A stretch of 64,000 bases of DNA, from contig JABYQR010000222.1 of NCBI GenBank assembly GCA_022592445.1, positions 1 through 64,000 on the forward strand, written 5' to 3'. Shown here piece by piece: positions 22,106 to 56,652 of this stretch. The stretch is from Cytidiella melzeri. Taxonomy: Eukaryota > Basidiomycota > Agaricomycetes > Polyporales > Irpicaceae. Below the pieces are notes generated by a model, which saw only the letters and a list, made by a program, of their open reading frames with translations, was not told the origin of the DNA and did not search any database. Position 1 is the stretch's first letter, and each line of letters starts with the position of its first letter. Made by a program: the position numbers and the translations under genes.

Positions 22106-23013
22106 ACTAGTCTGTATGTTGAGGTTAACTTCGCACCACGTATCGTACTGCAAGTCGCCACACGTATGAAATATGGGAAGATTACGTACGCGCCAGCTGA
22201 CCTGCGTGAAGCTCGAACGATGTGACCTATGAGCAGACCTAAACTGATGACATAGGACATAGATCAGCTCACTGTTTGGAGGAGTCACTAGTCGCTGCTA
22301 GAACTGCGACTAGTATGTAACAGGGCGAAGTGTTCATATCGATTCCAACGTGCCCGCCGGTGTCAATGACGTGCACGTGAATCGCACATATCCGTAGTAA
22401 ACCACACACGGAGCCAACATCGTGAGACATCGTAGCAGTGCGTATAGGATGAGACAGTCTTCGCAATGTCCTTCGACTCTCGTTGGCATTAAGGCCTAGT
22501 GAAAAGTCACCGTGCAGCGCGCATTGAGTGGCACGACCACTTTATAGCTCAGTCACACATGCAGGGGACGAGAAAATTACGACAAAAAGTATCCACTCAT
22601 CTTCAGACAATCGCTGCGTAGTGTTGTAGGCTCAGAACCTTCGAATCGGTTGCAACAACTTCAAGTTCGGGCGAAGTGGTAACAGATTCGCCTCCAGGTA
22701 ATTACCGCATCCGAGAGGACATGGGCCATGCTGTACAATTGGTGTCCCCGTTCAGGCCTTCAGAGAGTGATTAGCTTCAGTATGCAAGTTTGCAATAGAT
22801 GAACTACCTTGTACTGAATCCCGAAATATATGTAGTCGCGGGAGTCTGAGAGATTTATTGGTCACGGAAGCACGCGTGACAGCGTTACCCGAACGGATCA
22901 GAATGAGCGCTAACAGGGCCATTGACCGAGGAATGAACTTGCCACGAGTGGAACTCGACCACGGACTACATTCCATTGTACTCTACCTGCGGTTGCGGCT
23001 TGACTCCCGCATC
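22106..23013. other. bidirectional upstream region, no gene seen
   Basis: Region between the divergent SDR and mitochondrial S10 genes, likely holding both promoters. Short minus-strand frames at 22269-22466 and 22752-22976 lack support. Confidence 0.45.
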
Positions 23014-23776
23014 ATGTTTTCGCAAAGTAGGCGTGGGGTGGTCTCTGCGGTTAGATGGGCTCGCTGGAACAGTGACGTTGCAACTACCACGTCGTGAGTT
23101 ATCACGGACTAGTACAATAGAGGCCTCAGCTGAACCAATTATCATCAGAAGTAGCGCTGTAACCCCTCGCATAACAATGACACGGAGAGGACCAGCGATA
23201 GATGGCGTTAGTGAACCAGAACTGGCTGCTAAAGTCGTTCATGGACGAGCCGTTGTTGAACCTTACTACCACCCTCGGACACACAACATCCCTGCCGCCG
23301 TCATCCACCTACGGTCCCATTACCCACCACTTCTCGACCTCTTTACTCTGTTCCTAAAGCACTCTGCATCTGCGCTGGCAATTCCTATTTCCCGCCCAAC
23401 GATGCTCCCGACTCAGCGCAGTCTATGGACAGTTCCCCGAAGTCCGTTCATCCACAAGAAGAGCCAGGAGAACTTTGACAGAAAGACGCACAAAAGGGCG
23501 GTGAAGGCTTGGGATACGGATCCTGAAGTCATTGAACGATGGGTCAGGTATCTCCAGATGCATCCTGTGGCTGGGGTTGGTATGCGGGTTGTAAGGTGGG
23601 AGAGAGCACCGGTTAGCGTAGGCAAGAAGATTATGCACACCGTTCGAGCGCAACTGGGTGAGGCAGAGACTACCAAGGTGCAAGTGGAGAAGCTGGGGAA
23701 GAAGATCATTGAGCAGGAGCTAGCTGCTGCAAAGGATATCGATATGCTGCAGGTCGAAAGGAAAAAGCGGGTATAG
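23014..23776 (+). CDS. rsm10: mitochondrial small-subunit ribosomal protein uS10m
   Basis: Two exons, 23014-23093 and 23149-23776 (intron 55 nt), 708 nt, 235 aa. Exon 1 encodes an Arg/Ser-rich presequence without acids (MFSQSRRGVVSAVRWARW), as expected for matrix import. Exon 2 holds the S10 fold: AAVIHLRSHYPPLLDLFTLF, then ISRPTMLPTQRSLWTVPRSP and FIHKKSQENFDRKTHKRAVK, the most conserved stretch of mitochondrial S10, followed by a C-terminal helical extension typical of fungal members. An open frame runs upstream of exon 2 to 22976, but the spliced form gives a credible targeting sequence. It sits 62 bp from a hAT transposon target site. Confidence 0.93.
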
Positions 23777-25538: not shown

Positions 25539-25685
25539 GGTTATGAGCCCCGCGCTCTAACCGCACGAGAATTCCTATCCATCAAGCTCTATACTTGAAC
25601 TCTATTGAACTAGGCGACAGTACGTCGGCATTACGCCCGTAGGCCATCATTATCTCTATCTTTTGATCTTGCGATTAGATCTACT

Positions 25686-28600
25686 ATGGCGACAACCACT
25701 GCCGCAGCTTCCGAGACGTCGGGCAGCTATCGTATTGAACCGCTGAAGGGCGCCGAAAATTATATTACTTGGCGCGTCCAGATCACGGACATTCTCACGG
25801 ACATGGAGCTGTGGGAATACACTTCAGGCGACACCACCAAACCCGCTGATGCAGTCCAAGCTGCCGAGTGGACTAAGAAGGATCGGAAGGCGCTTACAAC
25901 CATCCGACTCCGCGTTTCAAACTCAATGATGGCGCATGTGATTTCCGCCAGTACCTCAAAGGATGCGTTCGACACACTTTCTAATGTCTTTAACAATGAA
26001 GGTGCCGTCGCTCTTATTGTTTTACGTCGCCGCTTTCTTCGTTACCAGATCCCTGAGGAGGGAGATCTCGGCGAAGAACTACGCAAAATCAAGGGGCTTT
26101 GGCAGGAGATCAATCTGGTACAGACATCAAAAATCTCTGACAACGAGTTAGCTTCCGTTATCCTCACGGCGCTACCGCACTCTTGGGACCCCCTGATCTC
26201 ATCAATTTCCCTTGACAACACTTTGACATCAGCCAATATTATTGGACGAATTCTGCAGGAAGATAACCGTCGTAAGGAACGGACTACAGCAGAAACTAGT
26301 CTATATGCGAATACCCGGCGCGTAAAATCAAAGTTCCGCGCTGGAATCTTCTGCCACGGCTGTGGAAAAGAAGGCCACATTAAACCCGAGTGTAGAAGTG
26401 GGGGGAAGAATAAGGAAGACGGTAAGAACGAAGGACAGGCAAAGGAAAGGAAGGGAAAGGAAAGGAACAAACTGAAGAGGGCTCACGCCCATATCGCCGA
26501 AGAACAGGACGACGATATCAACAATGAACCCGATGAATACGCTTTTTCGGTCACCGAGAACGCTCCTGCCGCTCCCACTAATATTTGGCTTGGCGACTCC
26601 GGCACATCATCCCATATTGTGAATAACAAATCCTTATTCATTAATTTTTCCCCCGTCAAAGGTTCCATTCATGGTGTCGGCAACTGCTCAAGCCTTGGTC
26701 GCGGCGACGTACGCATCGCGTTCATCACCAAACAAGGGACTGTTCCGGTTATACTCAAGGACGCCTTATACGCGCCATCAATGAAATTTAACCTCATTTC
26801 ACTTGGCAGGCTTACTAGCGCTGGCCTTTCCTATGAAGGCAAAGGGACGGAACTTTCCATCAAAAACGGAGAAAAGGTGATCGGACATGGAACTAAATCA
26901 GGAAATCTCTACCGAATGGCCGTTAAACCCGTCGACGCAATCTCAATGATCGCTCGCTTCGATCGCTCTTGGTATGAATGGCACTGTGCGCTTGGGCACA
27001 TCAACAAGGGACAGTTGAAAGAAATGCACCGCGACGGTCTAGTATCAGGTATGAATGTTGATACTACTTCTGATGATGACTTCATCTGCGAAGCGTGTAT
27101 CGCTGCGAAACACTCTCGCGCATCAATTCCCCTCCGGACCTTACGGAAAATTTCGCAAATCGGAGAAATCATCTTTTCCGATATTTGGGGACCGGCTACT
27201 ACCAACTCTATTGCGGGGCATTCCTATATGATCTCATTCACCGATGGGAAGTCGCGCTTTGTATGGGTCGACTTCATGAAAGATCAAGATGAGGCACCAG
27301 AGAAACTAGAGAAACTCGACGCTTTCATCGAGAACCAGTGCGGTTATAGAATGAAAGTTCTACGCGTCGATAACGCGAAAGAGTACGTGCAAGGGAAAAT
27401 GAAGTCTTACACTGATAAGCGCGGTATTAAGATTGAACCAACCACTCCCTACACACCCGAACTTAACGGAGTCTCCGAACGACTCAATCGCACACTCGTC
27501 GAACACGCACGTGCCATGTTACTCGCTCACAAATTACCCAAATATCTCTGGGAAGACGCCATTACCTATGCCGCATATCTCAAGAACCGCTCTCCTACTC
27601 GTGCTTTGCCACATCGCACTCCATTCGAAGGTCTTTGGAATAAGAAGCCGGATGTGAGTACTATACACGAGTTCGGAACTGATTGCTGGGTTCGGGTAAA
27701 TGTACCCACATCAAAACTCAATGCTCGATCAGTCAAACGGACTTTCGTTGGAAATACCGAAGGAACGGTGGGATACAGGTATTGGGTACCTGAAACGCGT
27801 AAAGTTTTGACGTCTCGTGATGTCATTTTTCCTCGATCAGACGAGCTTACAGCGCCCATCGTCGAGACCTCTGCTGGTCTTGAGGGGGAGAATCCTACAC
27901 AGCCACCACCCACTGCTATCCAATCCAAGACCATTTCGGTCTCTCCCTCTGCACCTACTCGCACTCTTCGAGAGAAGCCACGTGTTGACTACTTGAAACT
28001 TAACGACGGTCCTCAGAAATCACTTCGATCACTCTCTGCTAAACCAAAGGCGACTAAAACCAATTCAACTCCGGTATCCAAATCATCGGTTCAGGAGAAT
28101 CCTTTGGTTACAGAGGTACCGTCCCTCGAGACGGAAGCAGAATTATGTTTCCTGGCTGATAATCCAGATTCACCACAAACTTTTGACGAAGTCAGGAAGC
28201 GCGAAGATTGGCCTCTTTGGAAGGAGGCAATGGACAGAGAAATGGCGCAGCTCGATAGGCTTGGCACATATTCGATTTCGGACCTTCCGGTCGATCGCAA
28301 AGCTGTCGGATGCCGCTGGGTGTTCACTATCAAACGCGACTCTAATGGCAACATCCTGAAGTACAAGGCCCGCCTCGTCGCACAGGGATTTTCCCAGATC
28401 CCAGGCCAAGACTTCTTCGCAACTCACGCTCCAGTCATCCGACTTGAAACTTTTCGCATTCTAGTCTCCGTTGCCGCTCATCTTGATCTCGAGCTTCACC
28501 AGGTCGACGTCGTCGGTGCTTACCTGAACTCACCTCTCAAAGAAGATATCTATATGAAACAAGCACCCGGCTACGAAGACAATACCTCTCATGTTTATCA

Positions 28601-29714
28601 CCTCCATAAAGCCCTCTACGGCTTGAAACAAGCAGGCCGAGCTTGGCGCGCTGAGCTCGACCGCGTATTACTCGAGGCTTTGGGATTCACGCGCTCTCAG
28701 GCCGATCCATGTTTGTACTATCAAGGAACCAAATCCGACCTTATCCTTATTGGCACACATGTCGACGACTGCCTTGTGGCGTCCACAAATCTACAGATTC
28801 TTTCCGACCTTAAGGCCAATCTCAAACGATTCTTTGATATCACCGACCTCGGAGAAGCAGCACTCTACGTCGGTATCCAGATCGCTCGCCAGCGAGACAA
28901 AGGCACGATCACCATTTCCCAGACACGTTACACTGACGGCATTCTCGCTCATTTCGGCATGGAAACTTGCAACTCCGTGTCCACACCGCTCGATGCCAAC
29001 GTCACACTACTTCCCGCTACTACGGATGAAGAGCTCGCATACGATATACCTTACCAAGCCGTCATCGGCTCGCTCATGTATGCCGCGGTTGGCACTCGTC
29101 CCGACATTGCATTCGCCGTCCAGGCCCTCAGCCAGTTCAACTCGTCTCACACTACTGCTCATTGGACCGCGGCGAAACACGTGTTACGCTATCTCAAGGG
29201 AACTCGAGACTTAGGTATCACTTACAGTGGAACTCCCGATCTAACCGTCTCAGGTTTCAGCGACGCCGACTGGGGCCAGAACCGTGTCGATCGACGATCG
29301 GTATCTGGATACGCTTTCATCCTCGGAGGAGGAATGGCTAGCTGGAGTTCGAAGAAGCAGAGCACAGTCGCTCTCTCTACTATGGAGGCCGAATACGTCG
29401 CACTTGCTCACGCGGCGAAGGAGGCTATCTGGTTTAGGGAAATTCTTACAGAACTCGGATTTGCGCCTCCGGGACCCACTATTCTTGCCACCGACAACCT
29501 CGCCGCTATTTCATTCGCTCAGGACCATCAGTTTCATTCCCGATCGAAGCATATCGATATTCGGCATCACTTCGTCCGTGAGCGCATTCTCGACGGAACC
29601 ATTCTCGTCCCTCATTGTAGCTCGGACGACAACTGCGCCGATATTCTTACCAAGGCGCTCTCACGCATCAAACATTCAGAGCAACTCGCTCTCATCAAAC
29701 TCGCCGCTCGTTGA
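25686..29714 (+). CDS. copia Gag-Pol polyprotein
   Basis: 1342 aa in one frame, start ATG 25686 in the 5' leader after the LTR. Order of domains (Ty1/copia order, integrase before RT): Gag about 1-215; CCHC knuckle CHGCGKEGHIKPEC near 222; aspartic protease with DSG (WLGDSGTSSHI) near 300; pre-integrase WHCALGHINKGQ; integrase with FSDIWGP and VDNAKEYV plus ELNGVSERLNR supplying the D,D,E triad; reverse transcriptase GCRWVFTIKRD, QVDVVGAYL and HVDDCLVAS (in place of YVDD); RNase H with SDADWGQN and STMEAEYVALAHAAKEA, ending TKALSR. All catalytic motifs are present and no frame break is seen. Confidence 0.97.
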   Translation: MATTTAAASETSGSYRIEPLKGAENYITWRVQITDILTDMELWEYTSGDTTKPADAVQAAEWTKKDRKALTTIRLRVSNSMMAHVISASTSKDAFDTLSNVFNNEGAVALIVLRRRFLRYQIPEEGDLGEELRKIKGLWQEINLVQTSKISDNELASVILTALPHSWDPLISSISLDNTLTSANIIGRILQEDNRRKERTTAETSLYANTRRVKSKFRAGIFCHGCGKEGHIKPECRSGGKNKEDGKNEGQAKERKGKERNKLKRAHAHIAEEQDDDINNEPDEYAFSVTENAPAAPTNIWLGDSGTSSHIVNNKSLFINFSPVKGSIHGVGNCSSLGRGDVRIAFITKQGTVPVILKDALYAPSMKFNLISLGRLTSAGLSYEGKGTELSIKNGEKVIGHGTKSGNLYRMAVKPVDAISMIARFDRSWYEWHCALGHINKGQLKEMHRDGLVSGMNVDTTSDDDFICEACIAAKHSRASIPLRTLRKISQIGEIIFSDIWGPATTNSIAGHSYMISFTDGKSRFVWVDFMKDQDEAPEKLEKLDAFIENQCGYRMKVLRVDNAKEYVQGKMKSYTDKRGIKIEPTTPYTPELNGVSERLNRTLVEHARAMLLAHKLPKYLWEDAITYAAYLKNRSPTRALPHRTPFEGLWNKKPDVSTIHEFGTDCWVRVNVPTSKLNARSVKRTFVGNTEGTVGYRYWVPETRKVLTSRDVIFPRSDELTAPIVETSAGLEGENPTQPPPTAIQSKTISVSPSAPTRTLREKPRVDYLKLNDGPQKSLRSLSAKPKATKTNSTPVSKSSVQENPLVTEVPSLETEAELCFLADNPDSPQTFDEVRKREDWPLWKEAMDREMAQLDRLGTYSISDLPVDRKAVGCRWVFTIKRDSNGNILKYKARLVAQGFSQIPGQDFFATHAPVIRLETFRILVSVAAHLDLELHQVDVVGAYLNSPLKEDIYMKQAPGYEDNTSHVYHLHKALYGLKQAGRAWRAELDRVLLEALGFTRSQADPCLYYQGTKSDLILIGTHVDDCLVASTNLQILSDLKANLKRFFDITDLGEAALYVGIQIARQRDKGTITISQTRYTDGILAHFGMETCNSVSTPLDANVTLLPATTDEELAYDIPYQAVIGSLMYAAVGTRPDIAFAVQALSQFNSSHTTAHWTAAKHVLRYLKGTRDLGITYSGTPDLTVSGFSDADWGQNRVDRRSVSGYAFILGGGMASWSSKKQSTVALSTMEAEYVALAHAAKEAIWFREILTELGFAPPGPTILATDNLAAISFAQDHQFHSRSKHIDIRHHFVRERILDGTILVPHCSSDDNCADILTKALSRIKHSEQLALIKLAAR

Positions 29715-45404: not shown

Positions 45405-46040
45405 GATGGTATAGAATGTTGGAGAATGATTTGTAATGGGTGTGGAAAGGGTGTGAAAAAAATGTGGAAAGCAGTTTTTGACAGGGTTTGGACTCTTTGG
45501 AGAGGTTTTGAACTTTCAAAAGACAGCTGTGAGAACTATTTCAATATCACAACCCAGAGTGCAGCATAAACAGCAATGTTCTTACCAACCAGTGCTGAAA
45601 AAACAGAAGAATCTGGAGTTTTGCTGAGGTATGAGGATGCTAGTCAGAGTCTTTATATATCTTGTGGCTCATGTGCAGTGCTGAGCTAAACATGTAAGTT
45701 CTTCAATTGTCTCAGATGGCAGCACCCAAGCTGTTTCATCCTCATCACAATAGAAAGTATTTATTGGTTACCATGCAATAGCACAGCTCCCCAGAACAGT
45801 TTGTAGCAACCAGCCTTGAGTGTGCATTTCAATTTACTCATGAACTTCTGGCTGTATTCTGAAATCATTTTGATTTCACAAGTAATACATACTATTCATA
45901 AAGCTAAAACCACTGGTACAATGGCAAATGCTTTTATACCTGGTGTCCACTGCTGATGCAGCAAAAAAATGCTGATGCAGCAAGAAAATGATGTGCCCCC
46001 TAAATATATGAGTTGAATTGTTTTAGAATCAGCTTCCAGA
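45405..46040. other. AT-rich spacer, upstream of the secreted-protein ORF
   Basis: Includes a short tandem duplication TGCTGATGCAGCAA around 45950-45985. No gene supported. Confidence 0.4.
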
Positions 46041-46215
46041 GCAAGTTACATGTGTCCTGTTGATGTTTGAACTGCTTCATCCTCATTGAAACTGCCACAG
46101 GCTGTGTTTTGATGGTAACTATTGCTCAGAATGCAACTAACTGCAATTCCTGAAGAATGAAATTATTGTTGCATGGAGAATGAGGAAGAATTGTTCCAGT
46201 TACAATTCCTGAATA
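46041..46215 (-). repeat. truncated fragment of the palindromic repeat family
   Basis: GCAAGTTACATGTGTCCTG and the following 90 bp (including GAAACTGCCACAGGCTGTG) match the inner part of the right arm of the 46657-50293 palindrome (49120-49200) with scattered substitutions. It is followed by two diverged copies of the palindrome terminus AATTCCTGAAGAATGAA. It shows that the family has older, diverged copies next to the young palindrome. Confidence 0.7.
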
Positions 46216-46479: not shown

Positions 46480-46656
46480 CTCTTTACTACATTTTGCACT
46501 GTTCATGCATCCATACATGTTTTGCAATGTTGCATAGCTACCTTAATCATGTGTACTGCATTTGTTTTGCGCTGCTCATATACTCATACAAGTTTGATAA
46601 TGTTCCAGCTATGTTTGTTTGATCTTTATCTCTCCACTTATACAGACTGTTCCCTA
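46480..46656. repeat. minisatellite, left flank of palindrome
   Basis: Imperfect tandem repeats built on TTTTGCACTGCTCATGCA..CATACAAGTTT..GTAGCTACCTTAATCAT. The same array resumes in the same orientation right after the palindrome at 50294, so the palindrome was inserted into it. Confidence 0.7.
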
Positions 46657-48333
46657 TTACAATTCCTGAAGAATGAAGAAGAATTGTTCCAGTGTGCTCC
46701 AGCACATTGATGTCTTTTCAGATGTGACCTTTTTGTCCCCCAAAGTGTGGGAATTTGATGGCAGAATACAGAAAGTAACAGTGTCAATAACAAAACAATG
46801 AATACAGCTGATGGCATCACACTGGCCTTGTTATCAGCCCTTTATAACTTTGTATCAGATCACTTTTGCAATCAAAATGCACCTTTTGATTTTTACAGAC
46901 TGAAAATGGGTACAAATCTGTACATATAATACACCATTGGATAGCCCTATCTTGTGACAACATCCTGGTACAAACATCCTGTCAATTGGAGTGGAATTGA
47001 GGAAGTTATGGCCAGTCTACTAAAAAAAGTCATCCAGACTCAGATTCAAACTCCACACCTGCTGGCAAATGATGTCAAATCCTGGTCAGGTGCATGTGCA
47101 GCAATCTACACACATTGCTTGCTCTCTGAACAAGAAATACAATTAGAAGACATGCCACACATAGTATTGGCTCTGAGCAAGAGTTACCAGTACTTTAGAT
47201 GCTAACTACAAAGTGTCAATCCCTACATTCTTGGACAATGTAAATTTGTGGCTGCATTAGTAGTGAGTACTGTACCTGATTGGTTCACAAAGTTTCACAA
47301 CTGTGAGTTGCTCTTGCTCTCTAAGCAGGAATTACAATCAGAACACAGCCTGTGGCAGTTCCAATGGGGGTGAGGCAGTTCAGACATCAACAGTACATGG
47401 TTGCATCAGCAGCAAGCACTGCATTGAATTGTTGCACAAAGTTTCACAAGCATCAGTTGCTCTCTAAGGAGGAGGTAAAATCAGAACATAGCCTGTGGCA
47501 GCTCTGATGGGGGTGAGGCAATGCAGACATTAGCTGGACATGGTTTCATCAGCAGCCAGCACTGCATTCAATTGGTCCCCAAAATTTCACAACCATTAGT
47601 TGCCTTCTAAGGAGGAGTTACAATCAGAGCACAGCCTGTGGCAGTTCTAGTGGGGCTGAGGCAGTTCAGACATCAGGATGTGGTTGCATCACCATAGAGC
47701 ACTGCCTTTGATTCTTTCACACGGTTTCACAACCACTAGTGGCTCTATAAGCAAGAGTTACAATCAAAACACAGCCTGTGGCAGTTTCAATGGAGATGAG
47801 GCAGTTCATACATCCACAGGACACATGTAACTTGCTGTGGGAGTTGATCTAATGAGACACCCTCAAGCCCTTTATTTCGTATGCAAGCAATTTTCTGTCA
47901 TCAGCAATGAACACTGCACTAGATTTATGATAAGATATATGAAGCCCCTTGCTACCATTGGTAACTCCCATCATCAATGTATGGCTCATTTTCCTGTAAC
48001 CAGACTTATCATTTGTAGTAGAGTCACTTTATCCCAGATCAAGTTGCCTATAAACGGTGTCACCAATAGAAAATGCCCGTAATACAGTTGATATTCATGA
48101 CCAGATGGCTTGGCAAGGTCCTTACCAGGAACAGAGTTGTTTACTCAGGTTCTTTTTGGTAACAAAGTCACAGGTGCAATTAACTATTTCATGCTATATG
48201 ATTTATTCAATTATCAATAACATAATCACTTGCAACCCTGCTCCTGCAGTTTACCAGATTGTATCTAGAAAATCTAACATAGTTCAACACCATCAAGAAG
48301 AAGACGCACGTCAAACAATCTTTATCTCCATGC
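46657..48333 (+). repeat. palindrome left arm
   Basis: Begins TTACAATTCCTGAAG, ends ..TTATCTCCATGC. Contains open frames at 46954-47205 and 47837-48082 that are mirrored in the right arm; neither has a recognised domain and I do not call them genes. Tandem repeats occupy its middle. Confidence 0.85.
47230..47830 (+). repeat. tandem ~125-bp repeat inside the palindrome arm
   Basis: About five diverged units, each with GTTTCACAA..TAAGNAGGAGTTACAATCAGA and CACAGCCTGTGGCAGTT..GAGGCAGTTCAGACAT. Mirrored at about 49120-49720 in the other arm. Confidence 0.75.
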
Positions 48334-48616
48334 TTTACTCCACCAACTTGTACATGTTTTAATTCTGTATTTACACCCATTGTTGCACTTCAAACAATAC
48401 AGCACGGTCCCTCTTCTTTCATGAATAATTGTGTGCTCCAGTGGAAACAAATCACCAACTTACTATACATTACTCATTGAAGAAGCCATTCCTACCATTA
48501 TTACTTGTTTAGGCTACTACCAGCACCAAGTTTACCTACAAATCTGGCTCTAAAAGTAGTATTTCATTCAATCTTCAGGAATTGTACTTGCCGCTTGCCG
48601 GCCTTGCTAACGCTAG

Positions 48617-50293
48617 GCATGGAGATAAAGATTGTTTGACGTGCGTCTTCTTCTTGATGGTGTTGAACTATGTTAGATTTTCTAGATACAATCTGGTAAA
48701 CTGCAGGAGCAGGGTTGCAAGTGATTATGTTATTGATAATTGAATAAATCATATAGCATGAAATAGTTAATTGCACCTGTGACTTTGTTACCAAAAAGAA
48801 CCTGAGTAAACAACTCTGTTCCTGGTAAGGACCTTGCCAAGCCATCTGGTCATGAATATCAACTGTATTACGGGCATTTTCTATTGGTGACACCGTTTAT
48901 AGGCAACTTGATCTGGGATAAAGTGACTCTACTACAAATGATAAGTCTGGTTACAGGAAAATGAGCCATACATTGATGATGGGAGTTACCAATGGTAGCA
49001 AGGGGCTTCATATATCTTATCATAAATCTAGTGCAGTGTTCATTGCTGATGACAGAAAATTGCTTGCATACGAAATAAAGGGCTTGAGGGTGTCTCATTA
49101 GATCAACTCCCACAGCAAGTTACATGTGTCCTGTGGATGTATGAACTGCCTCATCTCCATTGAAACTGCCACAGGCTGTGTTTTGATTGTAACTCTTGCT
49201 TATAGAGCCACTAGTGGTTGTGAAACCGTGTGAAAGAATCAAAGGCAGTGCTCTATGGTGATGCAACCACATCCTGATGTCTGAACTGCCTCAGCCCCAC
49301 TAGAACTGCCACAGGCTGTGCTCTGATTGTAACTCCTCCTTAGAAGGCAACTAATGGTTGTGAAATTTTGGGGACCAATTGAATGCAGTGCTGGCTGCTG
49401 ATGAAACCATGTCCAGCTAATGTCTGCATTGCCTCACCCCCATCAGAGCTGCCACAGGCTATGTTCTGATTTTACCTCCTCCTTAGAGAGCAACTGATGC
49501 TTGTGAAACTTTGTGCAACAATTCAATGCAGTGCTTGCTGCTGATGCAACCATGTACTGTTGATGTCTGAACTGCCTCACCCCCATTGGAACTGCCACAG
49601 GCTGTGTTCTGATTGTAATTCCTGCTTAGAGAGCAAGAGCAACTCACAGTTGTGAAACTTTGTGAACCAATCAGGTACAGTACTCACTACTAATGCAGCC
49701 ACAAATTTACATTGTCCAAGAATGTAGGGATTGACACTTTGTAGTTAGCATCTAAAGTACTGGTAACTCTTGCTCAGAGCCAATACTATGTGTGGCATGT
49801 CTTCTAATTGTATTTCTTGTTCAGAGAGCAAGCAATGTGTGTAGATTGCTGCACATGCACCTGACCAGGATTTGACATCATTTGCCAGCAGGTGTGGAGT
49901 TTGAATCTGAGTCTGGATGACTTTTTTTAGTAGACTGGCCATAACTTCCTCAATTCCACTCCAATTGACAGGATGTTTGTACCAGGATGTTGTCACAAGA
50001 TAGGGCTATCCAATGGTGTATTATATGTACAGATTTGTACCCATTTTCAGTCTGTAAAAATCAAAAGGTGCATTTTGATTGCAAAAGTGATCTGATACAA
50101 AGTTATAAAGGGCTGATAACAAGGCCAGTGTGATGCCATCAGCTGTATTCATTGTTTTGTTATTGACACTGTTACTTTCTGTATTCTGCCATCAAATTCC
50201 CACACTTTGGGGGACAAAAAGGTCACATCTGAAAAGACATCAATGTGCTGGAGCACACTGGAACAATTCTTCTTCATTCTTCAGGAATTGTAA
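48617..50293 (-). repeat. palindrome right arm
   Basis: Exact reverse-complement counterpart of the left arm as far as I could follow. Identity stops at 48616/48334 on the inner side and at 50294/46656 on the outer side. Confidence 0.85.
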
Positions 50294-50565
50294 CACTGCT
50301 CATGCATCCATATACAAGTTTTCACGTTGTGTAGCTACCTTAATCATTTGTGCTGTCTCTGTTTTGCACTGCTCATGCATTCATACACAATTCATAGTGT
50401 TGCAGCTATGTTTGCTTGATCTTTGTTCTCTTCCCTTGTACAGCCTGCTTTCATTATTTTGCGCTGCTCATGCACCCATACATAGTTTTTAGTGTTGTGT
50501 ACTTACCTTAATCATTTGCACTGCCCCTTTTTGCACTGCTTATGTACTCATACAAGTTTCATAAT
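50294..50565. repeat. minisatellite, right flank of palindrome
   Basis: Two to three more units of the same GCACTGCTCATGCA / CATACA / GTAGCTACCTTAATCAT array, ending where a Ty3 LTR begins. Confidence 0.7.
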
Positions 50566-51170
50566 TGTAACAGTAAGGTTACTACTCACCAGATAAGTTG
50601 TTAGACTTGAGAGGATAGTGTGAGAGGTGTGCTAAGCAAAGTACAGGAGAGTACTGAGTAGTCCTTTATCAACAGAGTGGATAAGACTGAGGTAATATGC
50701 CCTCACGATACACATGAAGGGGAGGACCCCAGGTACTACCCTAAGACCCCTGATACCTACATGAGTAAGCGAAGTAATCTACCTTACTAAGCATTCCCTA
50801 TGTCCTAGTGGTGCCACTTCAATAATCAACCAATAGCAATTGTCCCCATGACCTGACCCCATGACCTAGTCCCAAAGCTAGACTTGTTCTAGCTTGTTCT
50901 AAGACAAGGCTAGACTTTTCCAGAAGGTTCTAAGAACTATGACATCATCTAATGAAATGTTCTATACTATGACATCATAGTTCCAGCATGTTCTACAAGG
51001 TTCCAGAGAGTGATACACAGATAAGGAAAGGAGCACATCAGCGCATCAGAGACAGAGGGCACATCAGCGCATCAATTAGACAGATAAGCGCTGGATAAGG
51101 ACCTAAATATTCCCAATAATACCGTTGCCTAGTAAGGCAAGTCTTGTAGAAACATTGAAAATTTGTGACA
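50566..51170 (-). repeat. Ty3/gypsy element A, 3' LTR
   Basis: 605 bp. On the minus strand it begins TGTCACAAATTTTC and ends TTACTGTTACA, directly preceded by the polypurine tract AAGAAGGGGGGTAA (51171-51184). A second, longer copy in the opposite orientation lies at 52327-53020. Confidence 0.85.
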
Positions 51171-51184
51171 TTACCCCCCTTCTT
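51171..51184 (-). other. polypurine tract of element A
   Basis: Minus strand AAGAAGGGGGGTAA abutting the LTR, fixing both the LTR edge and the element orientation. Confidence 0.85.
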
Positions 51185-51340: not shown

Positions 51341-52326
51341 CTAGTCCGTACCCTCCTCGGTTGCGTCATGGGATTGTGGATGATCCTTGGTGTGTTGTTT
51401 GTAACTTATATATACACAGTAGATTGTAGCTGAGCAGATAGCTCGGGGATGATCGTTGTAGAATATCTTGATTGCTTCTTGAGCATGCGTGATGTTTTCC
51501 ACAGGTTCCCACGTGTCATCATTTGGTTCATAGCCTTTCCAGTGTATGTAATACTGAAGCTTTTTCACACGACCTGTATGTCTTGACTTGAGAATGTTCT
51601 TGACTTTGTATTCTTCTTCTCCGTCAATAATATCTGGTGGAGGCATCTCCAGCTTTTGGCCTTCGAATTCAGGTTTGTTATACAGTACCAACTTGCTTGC
51701 ATGGAATACAGGGTGTATCCTTGGTGAACATTCGGGCCATTCCAGTCTGAATGTGACCGGCGAGAGCTTTTCAGCAATCTTGAATGGGCCATAGTACTTG
51801 GCTGATAGCTTATGTCCAGAATTTTGATAGTCTCTCAGAACCAGCATGACCTGATTGCCTTTGTTGAAGGGGACCTTCTGGACGTGCTTGTCATAGTACC
51901 ACTTCATGCGTTCAGCCGCAAGTTGTAACGCCGCTTTAGCATGCTCTTGAGCTTGCAAGCGGTTCCACATGATGTCATTCATGTCAGACCTTTTCAGGTC
52001 CTTAGTAAGCATTGGACCAGCTCTAGGGTGTCTGCCGTATTTGAGGTAAAAAGGCGAGTGCTTAGTTCCCTCGTGCGCTGCATTGTTGTATGCAAACTCA
52101 GCCGAGCTGAGCAATCTAGCCCAGTCATCATGTAGTTGATCAACGTAACAACGCAGGTACTGTTTGAGCGTTTGATTAACTCGTTCAGTTTGACCATCAG
52201 TCTGCGGATGATATGCGGTGGTCATCGTAGATTTTATCCCTAGCATTTTACACCATTCCTGGAATAAATCTGCTGCAAATTGTGGACCTTGGTCGGAAAT
52301 AATTTGCAAAGGTAACCCATGGATAG
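51341..52326 (-). pseudogene. element A integrase C-terminal half plus chromodomain
   Basis: Open minus-strand frame (ORF 51341-52372, whose first residues come from antisense LTR sequence). It contains integrase core residues ISDQGPQFAADLFQEW and TTAYHPQTDGQTERVNQTL, the GPY/F-like KYYGPFKIAEKLSPVTFRLE, and a C-terminal chromodomain (YKVKNILKSR..YYIHWKGYEPNDDTWEPVEN), which targets integration to marked chromatin in chromoviruses. The core is cut at its N-side by an LTR insertion, so no intact integrase can be made. Confidence 0.88.
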
Positions 52327-53020
52327 TGTCACATATTTTCAATGTTTCTACAAGACTTGCCTTACCAGGCAACGGTATTATTGGGATCAGTTAAGCGCTT
52401 GTCAAGCGCTTATCCAGTGCTTATTCCGGCGTCTATTTAGATGCTGATCCAGCGCTTATCTGGCGCTTATCAGGCGCTTATTCCAGCGCTTATTCTCAGT
52501 GCCTATCAATTGATGCGCTGATGCGCCTCCTGTCTCTGATGCGCTGATGCGCTCCTTTTCTTATCTGTGTATCACATGATAGAACTCTCTGGAACCTTGT
52601 GGAACATGCTGGAACTATGATGTCATAGTATAGAACATACCATTAGATGATGTCATAGTTCTTAGAACCTTCTGGAAAAGTCTAGCCTTGGAGCTGGGTC
52701 ATGGGGTCAGGTCATGGGGACAATTGCTATTGGTTGATTATTGAAGTGACACCACTAGGGCATAGGGCATGCTTAGTAAGGTAGATTACTTTGCTTACTC
52801 ATGTATGTATTAGGGGTCTTAGGGTAGTACCTGGGGTCCTCCCCTTCATGTATATATAGAGGCACTCCTGAGGGCATATCCCCTCAGTCTTATCCACTCT
52901 GTTGATAAAGGACTACTCAGTACTCCCCAGTACTTCGTTCACCACACCTCTCACACTCTATCTCACTCTATCCCCTCAAGTCTAACAACTTATCTGGTGA
53001 GTAGTAACCTTACTGTTACA
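52327..53020 (+). repeat. second LTR of family A, opposite orientation, inside integrase
   Basis: 694 bp, TGTCACATATTTTC to TTACTGTTACA. Longer than the 605-bp copy because of tandem GCGCTTATC-type repeats at 52390-52500. A TATA-like TATATATAGA lies near 52852. It separates minus-strand integrase codings LLYERVWTL (right) and HGLPLQIISDQ (left). Flanking 5-mers GATAG and GAGGG do not match, so either the duplication has decayed or it did not arise by simple integration and LTR recombination. Confidence 0.82.
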
Positions 53021-55281: not shown

Positions 55282-55746
55282 TTACAATTCCTGAAGAATG
55301 AAGAAGAATTGTTCCAGTGTGCTCCAGCACATTGATGCCTTTTCAGATGTGACCTTTTTGTCCCCCAAAGTGTGGAAATTTGATGGCAGAATACAGACAA
55401 TAACAGGGTCAATAACGAAACAATGAATCCAGCTGATGGCATCACACTGGCCTTGTTATCAGCCCTTTATAACTTTGTATCAGGTCACTTTTGCAATCAA
55501 AATGCAGTTTTAGATTTTTACAGACTGCATATGGGTACAGATTTGTACACATATTACACCATTGGATAGCCCTATCTTGTGGCAACATCCTGGTACAAAC
55601 ATCCTGTCAATTGAAGTGGGATTGAGCACATTATGGCCAGTCTACTGACAATGGTCTTCCAGACTCAGATTCAAACTCCACTCCTGCTGGCAAATGATGT
55701 CAAATTCTGATCAGGTACATGTGCAGCAATCCACAGACATTGCTTC
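55282..55746 (+). repeat. single diverged copy of the palindrome arm terminus
   Basis: Starts with the same TTACAATTCCTGAAG as the palindrome arm and follows it for about 465 bp (through GCAGCAATCCACAGACATTGCTT) with scattered substitutions, then diverges. It interrupts the RT frame of the gypsy fragment, which fixes an exact insertion edge for this repeat family. Confidence 0.8.
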
Positions 55747-56652
55747 ATCTCGTAAAAAAACAAAACATTATTGCACAATACCTACCACTGTAAACCCGAG
55801 CATTACAATATAACATTGAGCAAACTTTATCTCACACAATCTCTGTACCTAGAAAGTTATAAACACCCGGCACCCACAATAATGGTCTGCGGGCCACTTT
55901 ATCTTGCATGGTAATACGTTTTAATGTCTCCGCCCACAGTTTACAGTGCAAGATAATCTCGCCGCCGGTAGTTTATATTGTCATACACATCAATGCAATG
56001 CTTTCAAGGCAGTAGTTCTCGCATTAGGGTGCATAGCAACAATGGCAATGGATTGAACAGCGCAATGGCGAGAACATCAGCTAATCAATAATACAGCGCG
56101 AGCATGGTGAAAGAAATAGTCAGGAATGTGAGAGCATTGCAGGCAGAGGTGGGTGTCATTGAATTGTAGCGACCGTGAAAGAAAAACGAGAGTGTTTGTG
56201 CAAGATGACGTCCTGCGGGTGTTGGCTGCTTAACCATCAGGTGAGAATTCAAGCGGTATCAGTACTGCGACTTACCTTAGGGCCACCCGTCGCCATACAC
56301 AAGGCTTCAGCTGCTCGCGCAGTAGATCTTCTCGCACTCCTCAACGGTGTGGTTCATGCAGAAGGCCCAGAGGGGGTGTGGTACCGCAGCAATGGCCCAA
56401 TAGCTGGTTGGCAGAAGTCTGTCAGCTTGAAGTCGTTTTACACATGACTGCGAGGGCTCACCAACAGAGCAAGTGCGCGGCTTTGACCTGCGTCCAGTTT
56501 AACAGAGAGGGCCGTGTTGTAAGGGCCGTTCCGAGCCGCGCCCTTCGGGGCAGCGGAAGAGGCCCGGCCGTCATGGCGTGCTTCAGCAGCGAGAATGGAC
56601 TAGAATACGGCGGATGAGAATACAAGAAAACATTTTTTGAAGGGGTACTTAC
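55747..56652. other. spacer with possible further exons of a truncated gene
   Basis: Minus-strand open stretches near 56620-56500 and 56400-56290 (WAIAAVPHPLWAFCMNHTVE) could be downstream exons of the gene cut at 57062, but splice phases are not resolved. Confidence 0.35.

Follow-up and report, generated by a model that had tools for sequence, protein, structure and literature searches.

How a palindrome of about 3.6 kb came to lie within a minisatellite array is the question raised by this locus of the polypore Cytidiella melzeri, a species on whose genome our literature search found no paper. Perfect palindromes of large size are seldom seen and tend to be unstable; the usual explanation for them is breakage followed by fold-back of chromosomal DNA. 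The window, i.e. the whole 64,000-nucleotide stretch that was analysed, corresponds to contig C138 of the searched genome (49.7 Mb in 731 contigs). Comparison of the two arms demonstrated that they are exact reverse complements, with 1677 of 1677 bases paired and no mismatch, and an inverted repeat of this length cannot be due to chance. The original prediction of a near-perfect palindrome was thus worded too weakly, while its arm coordinates, its axis at 48475 and its 283-bp centre were all correct, as was its claim of tandem repeats inside the arms, which have a period of approximately 143 bp (Table 1). Beyond the arms the symmetry ends abruptly, and the 12 matches in the adjoining 40 flank bases correspond to the chance level. 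Ordinary chromosomal fold-back is therefore disfavoured, since it would have mirrored the host flank as well.

Table 1. Positions in the window of the palindrome, its component elements and the adjoining host array
Feature	Position	Strand	Basis
Left palindrome arm	46657..48333	+	Reverse-complement comparison
Right palindrome arm (element B)	48617..50293	-	1677/1677 identity to element A
Element A, complete, non-autonomous, rolling-circle-type, 1960 bp, 5' TTACAATTCC, 3' CTAG	46657..48616	+	Copy boundaries
Palindrome centre (3' 283 bp of element A)	48334..48616	+	Single copies elsewhere
Fusion point, exact CTAG terminus of A to position 1677 of B, followed by G, not T	48616..48617	.	
15-bp asymmetric terminal inverted repeat, 5' copy	46658..46672	+	Recurs at the 5' end of B
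Asymmetric inverted repeat, 3' copy, set back 30 nt from the 3' end	48572..48586	+	
3' tail ending in CTAG, weak hairpin with 4-bp stem (GCCG/CGGC)	48587..48616	+	
Tandem repeats of ~143 bp within element A	47314..47823	+	
Tandem repeats of the same ~143-bp kind within element B	49136..49636	-	
Host minisatellite, left flank	46497..46656	+	Alignment with the C187 array
Host minisatellite, right flank, same orientation as left	50294..50565	+	Alignment with the C187 array

The identity of the arms became clear from their distribution in the genome. With one arm as the query, 115 matches were obtained from the 40 scored of 841 candidates, and the full copies looked at were single elements rather than pairs. 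Element ends were set by where many copies begin and cease matching: numerous copies begin at the first base of the arm, and in single copies the arm continues into the sequence that forms the centre of the palindrome, terminating in ...CTTGCCGCTTGCCGGCCTTGCTAACGCTAG. Arm and centre together make up one complete element of 1960 bp, which is found singly elsewhere. For the centre, a query of 317 bases was matched over at least its positions 2–316, at 91–98% identity, in 39 other places (40 scored of 564 candidates). The family is abundant, with 359 matches to its 5' end (30 bases, at most one mismatch) and 417 to its 3' end (22 bases, at most two mismatches). The palindrome accordingly consists of a complete plus-strand copy, element A, and an inverted copy, element B, which runs from position 1677 to position 1 with its 5' end intact at 50293 and without the 3' 283 bp.

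The 5' end of the element reads TTACAATTCCTGAAGA, part of which recurs in inverted orientation over 15 bp (TACAATTCCTGAAGA), 30 nt before the 3' end. The hairpin of the 3' tail is non-significant (z of -0.78 for the last 30 nt and -0.48 for the last 60 nt), and the first 60 nt of the element fold better (z of -2.08). Among the fetched loci, counted without the overlapping loci L015 and L023 and without L001–L008 and L029–L040, the first two bases were TT in 29 of 31 and the base following CTAG was T in 23 of 27, while the base before the 5' end was G in 16, A in 10, T in 4 and C in 1, i.e. a purine in 26 of 31. Target-site duplication or deletion was absent at both of the nested sites read: at C179 the flanks of the host copy rejoin into 50 bases that match the uninterrupted element of the window exactly, and at C726 the host sequence, judged by eye, is continuous across the insertion. 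On C179 (41668–53463; L010 and L011), an 11.8-kb family copy that contains a Ty3-type LTR retrotransposon is nested in another copy.

These features allow the element to be placed among known transposons, as a newly described member of an established kind. Internal tandem repeats are a trait of HINEs, and the element carries such repeats. It further resembles Helentron/HINE (DINE-1) elements in having subterminal inverted repeats at both ends with the 3' copy set back (15 bp and 30 nt here), and in its coding content, as no stop-to-stop frame of more than 127 aa overlaps A or B. Helentron families are defined by sharing identical subterminal repeats that are 11 bp or longer, and, as here, their insertion leaves the target site unchanged (PMC4067079). 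In contrast to these elements, the target consists of one T preceded by a purine-rich base rather than of TT, the base preceding the 5' end being T in only 4 of 31 loci. Because the TT target is lacking, the 3' hairpin is weak and no partner with these ends was found in the fetched flanks of the RepHel loci, the element was not filed as a Helentron. It also shares with canonical Helitrons and Helraiser a 3' CTAG (which fits CTRR), a T after the 3' end and the lack of a target duplication, but differs from them in its 5' TT instead of TC, in possessing a terminal inverted repeat and in the base before the 5' end, A being found there in no more than 10 of 31.

Asymmetric terminal inverted repeats define Helitron2 elements in the broad sense (PMC5148889), and these are present here. 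The element shares them with the FoHeli elements of Fusarium, whose asymmetric repeats have a 3' member approximately 20–40 bp from the end, and which likewise form nested and composite copies, their multiple 5' termini being ascribed to self-insertion (PMC5148889). Their ends and targets differ from those found here (e.g. TCAG...ATTTT in FoHeli1/2), and the composites described for them arise by nesting, the sections consulted containing no perfect palindrome that is joined at the 3' terminus (PMC5148889). With its asymmetric inverted repeats, its 3' CTAG and its lack of a target duplication, the element looks like a non-autonomous, rolling-circle Helitron2-like transposon in the broad sense.

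A possible autonomous partner was sought among the Helitron genes of the genome, which holds 12 Helitron_like_N matches. The termini of the element did not occur in the fetched flanks of the RepHel loci L029–L042, and scanning L041 and L042 for other ends combining an inverted repeat with CTAG gave weak candidates only. The RepHel genes themselves fall into at least three groups that are approximately 95–99% identical within each group, namely L029/L030/L041 (C201, C188), L031, L032, L034–L036 and L042 (the C364 group), and L033/L037 (C45, C610), and could include autonomous partners.

With the ends of the element established, the architecture of the palindrome can be read in terms of them. 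Element A is joined bluntly at its CTAG to element B, so that the last G of CTAG abuts position 1677. The outer edges each coincide exactly with a 5' end of the element, and beyond them the host minisatellite resumes. At all informative points, the limits of the palindrome are ends of a rolling-circle element. Genome-wide, 181 of 183 exact 17-base 3' ends are followed by T, the two exceptions being the palindrome junction (G) and a copy on C55 (A), for which no inverted copy was seen within the 3,601 bases fetched. An 80-base query across the junction matched over its full span in the window alone (40 scored of 673 candidates). Three of the partial matches that extend furthest, on C99, C187 and C446, run 10–16 bases past the join; all three have T after CTAG and then unrelated sequence, with no inverted arm in the fetched stretches, and these matches are due to chance. 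No microhomology that could account for the restart at position 1677 is visible at the join.

The copy in the window is very young, as the original prediction had suggested. It carries no private substitutions over positions 1–590 (22 rows) and 1168–1677 (17 rows), as judged against matches at fetched loci covering at least 97% of the segment, with the repeat region 591–1167 left out; two other rows in each set were likewise free of them. A single private substitution, at position 1839, was found in the 3' 283 bp of element A. Of the full copies compared, the nearest one, on C723, differs by 19 substitutions and one gap over 1960 bp, and by 12 substitutions and one gap over the arm stretch, while the palindrome arms do not differ at any of their 1677 positions. 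At such a young age, two copies that descend independently from one recent source could be identical as well, and with no private substitutions in the arm segments the identity of the arms was dropped as proof of a single event.

The host site provides a further constraint. The flanking minisatellite has a period of approximately 160 bp and, as predicted, continues on both sides in the same orientation: when joined, the flanks can be aligned over their full length to a paralogous array at C187 (442 of 535 columns identical, 15 gap columns), which has no insertion at the corresponding point. The flanks join as CCCTA|CACTGCTCATGCATCC, compared to CCCTATGGTTGCTCATGCATCC in the paralogous array (host site CCCTA|CACTGCTC; paralogue CCCTATGGTTGCTC). 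As the joined flanks match this array, little host DNA was lost, and such a near-clean site, reconstructed from a paralogue, fits a single event. The left target reads A|C rather than the N|T usual in the family, unless at least one T was lost, and element A read as a plus-strand insertion thus departs from the N|T rule unless such a loss took place. By our reading of the junction, element B taken as a minus-strand insertion agrees with the rule exactly (G|T, zero host loss). Either A or B may be the original, since recombination can invert the spacer of a palindrome and an assembly can place it in the wrong orientation.

The reading that we prefer, with a probability of roughly 0.5, is that a very young Helitron2-like element was turned into an inverted self-duplication during its own replication or transposition, and that the second arm would have been made by synthesis starting from the element's own 3' terminus, with the element as template, and running back to the nicked 5' end. 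By analogy with Helitron models, the transposase would nick the 5' terminus and one strand would be displaced. Synthesis, or the released strand, would then arrive at the 3' terminus with its 3'-OH exactly at CTAG, where the observed junction lies. Missing the host T, this 3' end might switch or snap back to the element's own displaced strand and begin copying 283 nt inside the end, the inverted copy being seen to start from position 1677. Copying would halt at the nicked 5' terminus because the template ends there, which may be why the inverted arm stops exactly at the first base of the element, and the new end would finally be attached to host DNA no more than a few bases from the target, in keeping with the near-clean site seen via the paralogous array. 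Copying back from CTAG to the 5' end would explain every boundary at once. Of the origins named in the original prediction, a hairpin-derived duplication gives the best fit, though the bounding of the structure by a transposon's own 3' and 5' termini had not been recognised. Products of ODIRA, the template switching between leading and lagging strands, are not known to be transposon-bounded, whereas the palindrome here lies between transposon ends. The likeness is in the outcome, as such switching yields inverted duplications by copying back along the complementary strand (PMC10766183), and for Helraiser both displaced-strand and circular double-stranded intermediates have been described (PMC5876387). 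Weighing against a replication error are the lack of microhomology at position 1677 and of a second palindrome among the head-out pairs inspected. The A|C left target, the non-significant 3' hairpin and the failure to find an autonomous element with these ends in the fetched RepHel flanks count against it too, and the identity of the arms does not in itself call for one event.

An alternative that we regard as unlikely, though still a serious competitor, is that the same active source inserted twice in opposite orientations, with A nested in or beside B, after which the 3' 283 bp of B were deleted; gene conversion between the arms may or may not have contributed. The family does show nesting of oppositely oriented copies, at the two sites read (C179 and C726), and the copy is young enough for two independent insertions to be identical; C186 has an inverted truncated pair, its arms 87% identical, and the exact G|T target of B as a minus-strand insertion is in line with such a scheme. 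The deletion, however, would have to hit both the CTAG end of A and the boundary between the host and the 5' end of A exactly, and the remainder of B is absent to the left of 46657, where the host array is found instead. Moreover, an A that had nested normally should be followed by T and is followed by G.

It is rather improbable that the structure is an artefact of assembly or haplotype merging, in which a single element acquired an inverted arm from chimeric reads or because two nuclear haplotypes of a dikaryon were merged. Assembly is indeed hampered by identical copies of elements of this sort, as with the FoHeli elements (PMC5148889), and the junction was absent from all other scored places (40 scored of 673), yet the novel junctions would have to occur in some read, the two flanks fit together as a single uninterrupted array with a plausible target site at the join, and the edges sit exactly on element termini. 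The unmirrored flanks also speak against a simple hairpin-read artefact, and the chimeric join that the original prediction had offered as an option is disfavoured on the same grounds. Its other option, a true foldback transposon family with terminal inverted repeats of about 1.7 kb, describes the one copy in the window and was rejected as a family, its probability being very low: the other full copies looked at are single, CTAG-ended elements with short asymmetric ends, flanked by unrelated or host sequence and without long terminal inverted repeats, the inverted repeat of the family itself measures 15 bp, and the junction occurs nowhere else among the scored places (40 of 673 candidates).

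Other palindromes in the family were looked for by picking head-out pairs by eye among 100 listed of the 359 5' ends. No second palindrome of the same kind was found in this set, including the fetched C77 candidate, which was rejected as two separate near-complete elements, 85% identical and 449 bp apart. The head-out pair on C186 is not of the same kind either, given the lower identity of its arms. There (L020:4049-5867), two elements are fused head-out in mid-element and the join carries a short inverted repeat, making it an imperfect cousin of the palindrome.

To our knowledge the palindromic product is a new variant, and no Helitron-type palindrome fused at the 3' terminus was described in the literature material searched. 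More tentatively, the locus could be a natural record of a rolling-circle transposon that turns at its own 3' terminus and copies the displaced strand to the nicked 5' end, giving a self-palindrome with two outward-facing 5' ends. If real, the structure would link rolling-circle elements to palindrome formation and provide structural evidence on how synthesis behaves at a Helitron-type 3' terminus in vivo. It would also represent a terminus-bounded, homology-independent route to perfect palindromes, and a self-palindrome of this type might insert as a unit via its two 5' ends. The analysis also adds to what is described for wood-decay basidiomycetes a family of elements that is abundant and was active recently in one of them.

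Other repeats occur in the same window. A degenerate piece of the family's internal repeat region (46023-46139, minus strand, 86%) lies to the left of the minisatellite, and a further 5' fragment of the family, 470 bp long and 92% identical, is found at 55282-55751 on the plus strand. Between 50566 and 53932 the minus strand carries Ty3-type integrase/chromodomain frames, together with two LTR-like copies in inverted orientation (approximately 50566-51176 and 52321-53019) that are 82–94% alike, the second of which appears to be a solo LTR breaking the reading frame. Further upstream, a ribosomal S10 protein was read at 22937-23773, with a match to Cytidiella melzeri at 100% identity covering 75% of the query, and an uninterrupted Copia-type gag-pol frame of 1366 aa spans 25614-29711 on the plus strand.
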